The notes below the pieces were generated by a model. The model ran no database searches. It was given only the letters and a program-made list of their open reading frames with translations, and was not told the DNA's origin. A program made the translations under genes and the position numbers. From Thermococcus sp. (GTDB lineage Archaea > Methanobacteriota_B > Thermococci > Thermococcales > Thermococcaceae): a stretch of 33,397 bases of DNA. Each line of letters opens with the position of its first letter. The first letter of the stretch is position 1. Of this stretch, positions 10,350 through 13,761 are shown piece after piece. Location: the NCBI RefSeq assembly GCF_026988555.1, contig NZ_JALSLB010000064.1:1-33397 (forward strand). Reading direction: 5' to 3'.

Positions 10350-11011
10350 TTGAAGCTAAAAATCTCACTAAGAGATTTGGACGGACAGTGGCCCTGAACG
10401 GGATCACCGTTAAGATGTCCTATGGCATCAGCCTAATCCTCGGTCCTAACGGCGGGGGTAAGAGCACCTTCCTAAAGCTCGTTGCTGGTGTTTACAGACC
10501 AACCTCCGGAAAGGTCACTCTCTTTGGGGAGAACCCCTGGAGGAGTTCAGGGGTTAAGTATAGAATAGGAGTTGCCTACGATCCTGTCTCTTTTCCCCTT
10601 CAATTACCGGGAGGGAGTGGCTGGAGTCCATTGCTAGGTCCAAAGGTTACGGTGATGGGAGGTCGAGCGGATTGAAAAACTCTTTCACCTTGATTTCCTG
10701 GATAACCGAACCAGTAGTTACTCGGCCGGGATGATGAAAAAACTCGCCGTAGCGCAGGCTTTCATCGGCGAACCCGAGCTGATCATGATCGACGAGCCGT
10801 TCACCAGCGTGGATTTTAATACAATGGTAGAGTTTCTGAAACTGTTCAAGAGGCTCAGAGATGGAACAATTTTCTCCTGATAAGCCATATATGGGAGCCC
10901 CTAAGGTCCATTGTGGATAACGTCTATGTCATCTCCAACGGTAGCCTGATACTTCATGGAGAGGCAGCGGAGCACTGGGAAGAGATAGAAAAATTATTCA
11001 GACCTCTTTAG
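10346..11011 (+). pseudogene. ABC exporter ATPase, three frameshifts
   Basis: The TTG at 10346 overlaps the previous stop and follows GGAGGTGG (10333-10340), giving MIEAKNLTKRFGRTVALNG. Walker A is intact (GPNGGGKST). The frame is then lost at three places: near the T run 10591-10594 (after AYDPVS; the next part reads SPSITGREWLESIARSKGYG), at the G run 10657-10659 (next part EVERIEKLFHLDFLDNRTSS), and at 10871-10877 (next part LISHIWEPLRSIVDNV). The signature YSAGMMKKLAVAQAF and Walker B LIMIDEPF are present, and the last frame is the first one again, ending LFRPL and TAG. Each shift is equivalent to one missing base. Intact length would be about 222 residues. It would power the ABC-2 permease encoded just upstream. 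Its 3' end overlaps the convergent cbiO gene by 18 bases. Confidence 0.8.
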
Positions 11012-11812
11012 AATGAGCCTTTTCAGTATCTCCGCCGCCTCCTCGACGCTCATGGGGACCTCTTCATGTATGCCAAGGGTGTGGAAGAGCTTGACGATTT
11101 CGGGGGCATCTAAATTGGCCCTCTCTATCAGTTCCGGTCTGAGAAAGAGCTCACGGGGGCTCCCCTCGAAGATCACGGATCCGTCCAGCACGTAAACTCT
11201 GTCTGCGAGCCGGATCACCCTGAGGTCGTGGGTCACAACGATTACCGTTCTGCCCTCCTCTTTCCATCGGCGTATCATATCAAGGACGAAGTTCCTGTTT
11301 TTCAGGTCGAGGTCTCTGGTTGGTTCATCAAGCAGGAGAACCTCCGGTTCCGTGCTCAGCACCGCGGCTATCGAGGCCTTTTTCTTTTCCCCACCGCTGA
11401 GGTTGTATGGATGTCTATCGGCCAGCCTTTCAATCCCGAGTAACCTCAGAGCCTCAAAAGCTTTTTTAGTTCCCCCTTTCCCCCATATATGGAGCGGGCC
11501 GAATGCCACGTCATCCAGCACGGTCGCGCTGAAGAGCATAACATCAGGGTTCTGAAACAGAAAACCCACCTTTCTTCTGAAATTCCTGTCTGTCATCGTT
11601 TCCTCCGTCACTGGCTTCCCCTCAAAGAGAACCTCCCCCTCCGTCGGTAGCAGGATGGCATCCATTATCTTGAGGAGTGTTGTCTTCCCGGCCCCGTTCG
11701 GTCCGATTACCGCGAGGGTCTCTCCCTTCCTGACCTCGATGTTCACGCCCCTTAGGGCCCACTCACCGGTTGGGTACCTGTAACCAACGTTTCTAAGCTC
11801 GTAAATCTTCAC
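10994..11812 (-). CDS. cbiO: Energy-coupling ATPase of a nickel/cobalt transporter
   Basis: A 272-residue ABC ATPase of the ECF/CbiO type. It shows Walker A GPNGAGKTT, Q-loop FLFQNPDVMLF, signature LSGGEKKKAS, Walker B VLLLDEPT and H-loop VTHD, followed by an extra C-terminal helical part (about 220-272) usual for CbiO. The GTG at 11812 follows GGAGGTG and overlaps the cbiQ stop as GTGA, so the genes are coupled. It is the last gene of cbiM-N-Q-O. The FQNPD motif separates it from ordinary uptake ATPases. Metal choice (Ni or Co) cannot be read from this subunit. Its 3' end overlaps the convergent broken exporter ATPase. Confidence 0.93.
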   Translation of the reverse strand: MKIYELRNVGYRYPTGEWALRGVNIEVRKGETLAVIGPNGAGKTTLLKIMDAILLPTEGEVLFEGKPVTEETMTDRNFRRKVGFLFQNPDVMLFSATVLDDVAFGPLHIWGKGGTKKAFEALRLLGIERLADRHPYNLSGGEKKKASIAAVLSTEPEVLLLDEPTRDLDLKNRNFVLDMIRRWKEEGRTVIVVTHDLRVIRLADRVYVLDGSVIFEGSPRELFLRPELIERANLDAPEIVKLFHTLGIHEEVPMSVEEAAEILKRLILKRSE

Positions 11813-12630
11813 CTGAACACCTCCGTTGTCACGACCGCGAGTGCCAGGAGAATCAACGTAAACACTGCTAGGGCGTAGTCTGTTTTTCCTATCTTTAATT
11901 CCTCTGAACGCAGAGTATCGTTGGAGTAGCCTCTGGCCAGCATTGCGTAGTACACCTCCTCACCAAGGGAATTGGCTTTTATGAAAGTTGCCCCCATGTG
12001 CTTTCCTGCCTCTTTCCAGCTCTCCACGAGGCCCAGATTACCGGCCAGCCTTGAGCGTCTTGCATGCATTGAGTCCAGTAGGAGCTTCGCGAGGAGGAAG
12101 ATGTATCTGTACGCGAGGGTAGTTATGGTTATAACCGCTCCAGGAACCCTGAGGCTGGTTAGGGCGGATACGAAGTCCTTCCACCGAGTTGTCATTGTGA
12201 AGAGAATGGTGTATGAAACGGCCGTTGCGACCCTTAACGTGAAGAGGGCCGCCCACGTCAGCCCCTCCCAGCTTGCACTCCATTCCGTGAAGGGAAAGGT
12301 GAAAACGGGCCTTCCGGGGGTCATGAAGATAGATGGTACCGCTATCAGTCCGGTGAAGACAGGGATGAAGAACCATACCCTCTTTATAAAATACGAAATG
12401 CGAATGTGGGAGAGGAGTGCAAAGATCAGCGGAACGGTGTAAAAAAATAGAATAACGTAGATGTTCCGCAGGGAGACGACCACTGTTACGAGGATGAGGA
12501 GGGAGAGTAGCTTAACCCTTGGATCCGCCTGCTGGAGCAGGCCACTCTTCCTTGCGTACCTCTCGGAGAACACCGCCTCTGTGGTAAATTCAAGCACTTC
12601 CCTTGCCGTGCTCTCCAGGAGTCCCTCCAT
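11809..12630 (-). CDS. cbiQ: Transmembrane coupling subunit of a nickel/cobalt transporter
   Basis: A 273-residue CbiQ-family membrane protein, equivalent to the EcfT subunit. It begins MEGLLESTAREVLEF, has DPRVKLLSLLILV at the first helix, several further membrane helices, and the two short Ala-Arg-Gly type coupling motifs of the family (SMHARRSRL near residue 190 and AMLARGYSND near residue 230) that contact the ATPase. The ATG at 12630 is preferred since GGGTGA precedes it by five bases. It sits between the small CbiN-like gene and cbiO and overlaps cbiO by four bases. Confidence 0.92.
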   Translation of the reverse strand: MEGLLESTAREVLEFTTEAVFSERYARKSGLLQQADPRVKLLSLLILVTVVVSLRNIYVILFFYTVPLIFALLSHIRISYFIKRVWFFIPVFTGLIAVPSIFMTPGRPVFTFPFTEWSASWEGLTWAALFTLRVATAVSYTILFTMTTRWKDFVSALTSLRVPGAVITITTLAYRYIFLLAKLLLDSMHARRSRLAGNLGLVESWKEAGKHMGATFIKANSLGEEVYYAMLARGYSNDTLRSEELKIGKTDYALAVFTLILLALAVVTTEVFR

Positions 12631-12647
12631 CTCGTTCACCCGCGGGT

Positions 12648-12980
12648 TCAGCCTTTGACCCCTCCACCCGTCAGCTTCACCACCACGTAGTAGAATCCAA
12701 TGACCAGGGCAACGCCGACTATAGCGGAGAGGATGTATCCAGCCGATGCGTGGAGCTTGTCCTCCCACCCTGGAACGTTGTAGTCTGGGAGAACGGCATG
12801 ATTCCACACGTTGGACAGTTTTTCCATGCCCGGAAGCTTCTGACCAACCATGTGTTCAATCGTGCTGACATCCCACTCCCCCCAAGCATCCCCATAGTTC
12901 CACACGAGCAGTATTCCCAGCGGTGAAAGCACTACCATAACGGCGACCGCGGTTAGGAGGGCTTTTGTAAGGCGGTCCAT
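12648..12980 (-). CDS. cbiN: CbiN-like small membrane component (PDGLE type)
   Basis: A 110-residue protein with an N-terminal membrane helix (LLTAVAVMVVLSPLGILLVW), an extracytoplasmic loop that ends LPDYNVPGWEDKLHAS, and a second helix (AGYILSAIVGVALVIGFYYVV). The two-helix layout and the PDGLE-like motif match the small accessory component that associates with CbiM in many archaea and helps metal transport. GGGGTGA lies just before the ATG, overlapping the end of cbiM. Sequence is divergent, so the call rests as much on position between cbiM and cbiQ as on the motif. Confidence 0.82.
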   Translation of the reverse strand: MDRLTKALLTAVAVMVVLSPLGILLVWNYGDAWGEWDVSTIEHMVGQKLPGMEKLSNVWNHAVLPDYNVPGWEDKLHASAGYILSAIVGVALVIGFYYVVVKLTGGGVKG

Positions 12981-12984
12981 CGTT

Positions 12985-13652
12985 TCACCCCCTCGTCCGA
13001 AGTATCTTTCTCATCTCAAAGAGATCCGGCCGGCTCTTCCTTACGTACCACACAACCGCTCCAGTCACCACTGCGGCGGCAGGTCCCGCCGTCAGCAGGT
13101 GTGCAACGGCCATCGCCGGAACCGAGACACTCAGGGTATACGGGCAGTAACCGGGCTGTACGTATGGTTGTATCCCAAGTTCCGTCCCGGCCACCGTCGC
13201 CGCTGTGACTATACCGACGTAAGCACCGATACCAGCTGAGATGGCCTCGTCCAGCCCGACCCTCTTTGAGAGGAACCGATAAGTGTAGTACCCCACGAAT
13301 GGGAGGACGACACCCATGTTAAAGACGTTGGTGGCGTAACTCGTTATTCCCCCATCACCGAAGAAGAGGGCCTGTATTAGGAGAACTATCGTGAGCGAGA
13401 CCGTTGCTGCCCATGGATCGATCAGTATTGCTATTATGGTTCCCCCCACTATATGGGCCGTTGTCCCCCCCCCGGAACCGGCAGGTTGTACATCATCACC
13501 AGGAACGCAAAGGCCGTAAGCACTCCGAGGAGCGGAACCTGCTGGGGTTTCAATTCCTTCAACCATCTGAACGCTTTGTACCAGATGGGCACCATAACAA
13601 TGTAAAACAGCGCGCACGTGTAGGGACCCAAGTATCCATCCGGGATGTGCAT
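12985..13652 (-). pseudogene. cbiM: Nickel/cobalt-binding membrane component CbiM/NikM, frameshifted at a C9 tract
   Basis: The N-terminal frame begins MHIPDGYLGP, the hallmark of CbiM/NikM, where the amino group of Met1 and His2 help bind the metal. It runs through MMYNLPVPGG and is lost in a run of nine Cs (Gs in the coding strand) at 13465-13473. The rest follows in another frame as TTAHIVGGTIIA and about six membrane helices to KILRTRG. The usual family reading is PVPGGTTAHxVGG, which needs seven Gs; nine are present, a shift equal to +2 or -1. Corrected length is about 221 residues. Such a tract is prone to slippage, so the gene could be phase variable, mutated, or miscounted. It is the first gene of the operon. 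Confidence 0.85.
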
Positions 13653-13673: not shown

Positions 13674-13701
13674 GTGTTATCCTTTTAGAGAATAGTAACA
13701 C
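13674..13701 (-). promoter_or_regulatory. NikR-like operator (inverted repeat) before cbiM
   Basis: GTGTTAT-N14-GTAACAC spans the region just downstream of the TATA box, over the predicted transcript start. As I recall it, a GTGTTAC-N13/14-GTAACAC consensus has been described for NikR, the nickel-responsive repressor, in some lineages. A third copy of the half site (GGTGTTATC, 13726-13734) lies upstream of the TATA box. This suggests nickel control of the operon. Confidence 0.6.
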
Positions 13702-13712
13702 TATATAAAAAC
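13702..13712 (-). promoter_or_regulatory. TATA box of the cbiMNQO operon
   Basis: Minus-strand GTTTTTATATAG region centred near 13707. A start about 26 bases downstream (near 13681) gives a leader of about 30 bases before the ATG at 13652. Confidence 0.6.
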
Positions 13713-13761
13713 GTTTTGGAAATCTGGTGTTATCAACTAAAGGTTTGAAAGCGGAGGATGT

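Follow-up and report, generated by a model that had tools for sequence, protein, structure and literature searches.

The window, a stretch of 33,397 nucleotides from a Thermococcus sp., carries on its minus strand a promoter followed by cbiM, a PDGLE-domain gene, cbiQ and cbiO (Table 1; the start of cbiQ was placed from its relatives and is approximate). In the assembly the cbiM frame is broken at a run of nine C residues (13465-13473). A near relative (L098) has a shorter C run and an intact cbiM gene of 221 amino acids, and the frameshift is either a sequencing error or slippage. Apart from this frameshifted gene the NikMNQO composition is complete, with a CbiM-family S component, a PDGLE N subunit, Q and O.

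Table 1. Genes and predicted promoter elements of the cbi locus (positions in the window).
Feature	Position	Strand	Basis or remark
cbiO/nikO ATPase	10994..11812	-	
cbiQ/nikQ T-component	11809..12640 (ORF 11809-12807)	-	TIGR02454 E=5e-45
PDGLE-domain (NikN-type) small membrane subunit	12648..12980	-	Pfam PF13190 E=1.3e-10
cbiM/nikM S-component	12985..13652	-	frameshifted
NikR-type operator, inverted repeat of two half-sites, 21-bp offset	13674..13701	-	letters and published consensus; predicted
Start-codon-proximal half-site ATAACAC	13674..13680	-	
Promoter-proximal half-site GTGTTAC	13695..13701	-	
TATA box TTTTTATATA	13702..13711	-	sequence
BRE-like AAAACG	13712-13717		beside TATA box; sequence
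Third NikR half-site ATAACAC (GTGTTAT on other strand)	13727..13733	-	offset 32 bp from promoter half-site; predicted
Exact long SurR motif GTTATCAACTAAAGGTT (GTTn3AACn5GTT)	13729..13745	+	overlaps third half-site; predicted SurR site

Automatic annotation would make this operon a cobalt importer under a cobalt- or cobalamin-linked regulator, the NCBIfam name for CbiM being 'cobalt transporter', and the use of B12-dependent enzymes by Thermococcales (PMC2667541) also speaks for cobalt. An earlier sequence-only reading had favoured nickel while holding that nickel and cobalt carriers of this class are not easily told apart by sequence, but to a fair degree they can be separated. The small membrane subunit is of the PDGLE type, which we take to mark nickel-type transporters, and the second CbiM lineage of the Thermococcaceae likewise has a PDGLE protein gene next downstream. 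The intact CbiM of L098 scores 203 bits against PDB 4m58, presumably the nickel-specific NikM2, versus 46 bits against the CbiM of 5x3x, which we assume to be the cobalt CbiMQO complex. No CbiC was found in the source genome. NikN and CbiN are without significant similarity to each other, and B12 synthesis is absent from the Thermococcales (PMC2667541). Together with the NikR-type operator and the tie to the hydrogenase regulon described below, these features leave cobalt import highly improbable, and the identification of the operon as a nickel importer is well supported. It would assign nickel, not cobalt, to the 'cobalt transporter CbiM' annotations across the Thermococcaceae. With its M, N (PDGLE), Q and O components the system resembles the NikMNQO/CbiMNQO ECF transporters (PMC2667541), from which it differs in the frameshifted cbiM copy and in that its metal specificity is a prediction from sequence.

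The minus-strand sequence of the promoter is AACCTTTAGTTGATAACACCAGATTTCCAAAACGTTTTTATATAGTGTTACTATTCTCTAAAAGGATAACACCAACAGGATGGAGGGTGAACCATG, in which the TATA box is followed by GTGTTAC-N14-ATAACAC. This operator (GTGTTATCCTTTTAGAGAATAGTAACAC) lies directly 3' of the TATA box, overlaps the expected transcription start and ends about 21 bp ahead of the cbiM ATG (13652). In delta-proteobacteria the NikR signal is GTGTTAC-(N13/14)-GTAACAC, of which Desulfovibrio has GTGTTAt variants (Rodionov et al. 2004, PMC545781), and the site in the window has no mismatch to the GTGTTAt variant at a spacing of N14. The GTGTTAT-N14-GTAACAC repeat that the sequence-only reading had described after the TATA box is thus confirmed, and the operator type that it named was the correct one. 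A genome-wide pattern scan found no other exact copy in the 1.97-Mb genome, and since a loosened pattern (up to 2 mismatches, Y/R letters) gave 25 matches against 65 for the reversed control, only the exact copy stands out. The suggestion that the same repeat would precede other nickel genes was not confirmed, as the operator is unique in the genome, the genome-wide scan found none at the hydrogenase or hyp genes, and the only other gene at which relatives carry it is nikR (5/40).

The nikR gene on which the nickel interpretation depended is present in a single copy two genes from hypA (PF08753 E=1.6e-32; NF003381 228 bits). Its product matches NikR of P. horikoshii (E=6e-69) with the metal ligands H/H/H/C aligned, and several matches to large subunits of the [NiFe]-hydrogenase type occur in the genome. 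NikR is encoded in 91/94 Thermococcaceae genomes and CbiM in 65/94, and because NikR is near-universal its co-occurrence with the operator cannot serve as a test of the link between them. Most Thermococcaceae have one NikR copy and two genomes (G027, G069) have two each. About 29/94 genomes are without CbiM, yet nearly all of these have kept NikR, which must therefore have another target there; family scans found no alternative NikR target in the CbiM-lacking Thermococcaceae.

The spacing and orientation of the half-sites were compared in 59 Thermococcaceae cbiM promoters, one per genome (40 type-2, 19 PDGLE-type), by scoring pairs of GTGYTAY or RTARCAC in any orientation at offsets of 14-35. 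An offset of 21 was best, with a mean of 0.64 mismatches in 14 versus 1.9 or more elsewhere, and the next best offsets (31-32) correspond to the third half-site. Pairs at 21 bp in either orientation have at most 2 mismatches in 59/59 promoters, at most 1 in 53/59 and none in 27/59, while at most 1 mismatch was reached by 0.03% of simulated sequences and a perfect pair by none in 3000 simulations (either orientation). Inverted pairs with at most 1 mismatch occur in 30/40 type-2 and 7/19 PDGLE-type promoters, versus 0.07% of simulated 150-bp upstreams. About 40 of the 59 promoters carry inverted pairs, 16 direct pairs, and a few are unclear. Mapped onto the CbiM tree, the inverted/other label requires 8 changes, of which well-supported branches impose 5; in this count the Methanocaldococcus row (L015) and L086 had been set to 'inverted' by default, and their orientation is not valid. 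The well-supported sisters L069 and L072 differ in operator orientation. By this comparison of sequences, one half-site appears to have flipped repeatedly during the evolution of the family. Tolerance of such flips would be understandable if each half-site were bound by a symmetric ribbon-helix-helix dimer of the NikR tetramer, and the promoters, with their naturally occurring inverted and direct operators, lend themselves to testing DNA recognition by a ribbon-helix-helix tetramer.

CbiM falls into two extremely divergent lineages, of which each genome has one (L041-L103), and both stand behind promoters of the same layout. It looks as though the transporter was exchanged while its promoter stayed in place. 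In 5/40 genomes (L178, L190, L202, L204, L209) the nikR promoter has a direct-repeat operator between TATA box and ATG with 0-1 mismatch and the 21-bp offset, and nikR is possibly autoregulated in these five. Among bacterial PDGLE relatives (L016-L035) no clear operator was found, bar a site with 1 mismatch in a Hydrogenedentes contig (L030).

These half-sites at 21 bp could instead serve another regulator, such as a metal sensor of the DtxR or ArsR type. The literature searched contained no test of a thermococcal NikR operator, and the sites are absent from the other nickel genes of the source genome. Such a regulator is nevertheless a very unlikely reader of the sites, as their sequence and 28-bp architecture equal the delta-proteobacterial NikR consensus (PMC545781), some genomes carry the same site in their nikR promoter, and the free orientation fits a ribbon-helix-helix tetramer.

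The third half-site, which the sequence-only reading had listed as part of the NikR operator, is present, but it is not purely a NikR feature because it overlaps (GTTGATAACAC) an exact match to the long SurR motif (GTTn3AACn5GTT; PMC10025317, PMC8595942). Activating SurR sites lie upstream of BRE/TATA (PMC10025317, PMC12401011), and the SurR core at the cbi promoter ends 17 bp upstream of the TATA box, compared with about 17-20 bp at hypA, hypF, SH-I and mbhA, all of these distances being measured by eye. A surR gene is present (NF047699 384 bits; PDB 2qlz 2e-90). Genome-wide, the long motif has 38 matches versus 8 for a reversed control, the intergenic ones lying at surR/pdo, SH-I, mbhA, hypF, hypC, hypA, a hydrogenase large subunit and formate dehydrogenase (some of these gene names were assigned by eye from the sequences). 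Among the 59 cbiM promoters the motif is exact in 32 and has at most one mismatch in 58 (null 0.4% and 7%). The presence of this motif ahead of surR/pdo, mbh, SH-I, hypA, hypC and hypF makes nickel uptake a probable member of the SurR (hydrogen/sulfur) regulon. The hypA promoter, next to nikR, has a double SurR motif (L128 about 1501-1523; G000:C49:36867-36889), and with the exact long motifs at hypF and hypC the nickel-insertion pathway looks SurR-linked as well. An exact long motif also stands upstream of a gene for an Lrp-type regulator (L134).

Control by NikR alone would leave the SurR-like motif as a by-product of an extra NikR half-site in AT-rich sequence, and the overlap of the two motifs, some of the AAC belonging to the NikR half-site, speaks for this. 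The third half-site is kept as RTAAYAC in many Thermococcaceae cbiM promoters and lost in several genera. However, the AACn5GTT element lies outside the half-site, is kept where the third half-site has been lost (e.g. L052-L054), and is separated from the operator by 32-33 bp in 51/56 cbiM promoters. With the core-to-TATA spacing also equal to that at hypA, hypF and SH-I, sole control by NikR is unlikely.

We consider it likely that the promoter of this NikMNQO-type operon has two inputs, activation by SurR and repression by Ni-NikR, perhaps partly in competition. Without elemental sulfur, when [NiFe] hydrogenases are made, reduced SurR would bind its motif upstream of BRE/TATA and activate the operon, as the site, its position and the regulon suggest. 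When intracellular nickel is sufficient, the Ni-bound NikR tetramer would bind the half-sites spaced by 21 bp and block transcription. Repression is suggested by the identity of the site and the presence of nikR, and the two half-sites cover the region from TATA box to start codon. On weaker grounds, the third half-site within the SurR box might let NikR compete with SurR. The operon would be off whenever S0 is present or nickel suffices, and the supply of nickel would be tied to the sulfur/hydrogen switch under which the nickel enzymes are made. It is conceivable, though we hold this only tentatively, that NikR reads half-sites in any orientation given the 21-bp (two-turn) register and that Ni-NikR displaces SurR at the overlapping box, a gate that would allow nickel uptake solely without sulfur and when nickel is short. 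Against the two-input model count the lack of a NikR operator at the hydrogenase and hyp genes of the source genome, the loss of the third half-site in several genera and the frameshift in cbiM. Moreover, S0 increased nickel/cobalt transport in Palaeococcus pacificus (PMC6981617), opposite to what SurR control would predict; hypF and MBH1 rose too, and the SurR logic may therefore differ in Palaeococcus.

NikR control of NikMNQO is already known, and an earlier prediction that extends it to methanogens is cited in PMC10617489. The delta-proteobacterial nik(MN)QO operators (PMC545781) share the GTGTTAC/GTGTTAT half-site, the 27-28-bp inverted repeat and the location upstream of NikM/NikMN, but their spacing is mostly 13 instead of 14, whereas here the promoter is an archaeal TATA promoter, direct repeats are frequent in the Thermococcaceae and a SurR box overlaps the extra half-site. 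Flipped half-sites at constant spacing recall the everted NikR sites of Desulfotalea psychrophila (PMC545781), although the Thermococcaceae variants are mainly direct repeats, with several flips within one archaeal family. The SurR site is placed upstream of BRE/TATA as in the Pyrococcus/Thermococcus SurR regulon (PMC10025317, PMC8595942, PMC12162507; cf. mbh, SH), but the target here is a nickel importer, which the SurR papers searched do not list, and the site is combined with a NikR operator. Neither this combination nor half-sites flipping at fixed spacing was found in the literature searched, which covered part of the work on SurR and NikR.

Wider scans returned few further candidates. 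The exact inverted operator had only 6 matches in 94 genomes, and those in G019, G009 and G011 were rejected as lying inside ORFs. The direct-repeat scan found cbiM promoters, one nikR promoter (G018) and matches judged unrelated; those in G078, G082, G083 and G061 fall in coding sequence or a conserved coding end. In genus g3 the matches (L154, L155, L157, L174, L175) are a repeated AT-rich GTGTTAY-TTTTT...-GTGTTAT judged unrelated to nickel. This element lies beside what resemble CRISPR-type repeats and is apparently the leader of CRISPR-like arrays.
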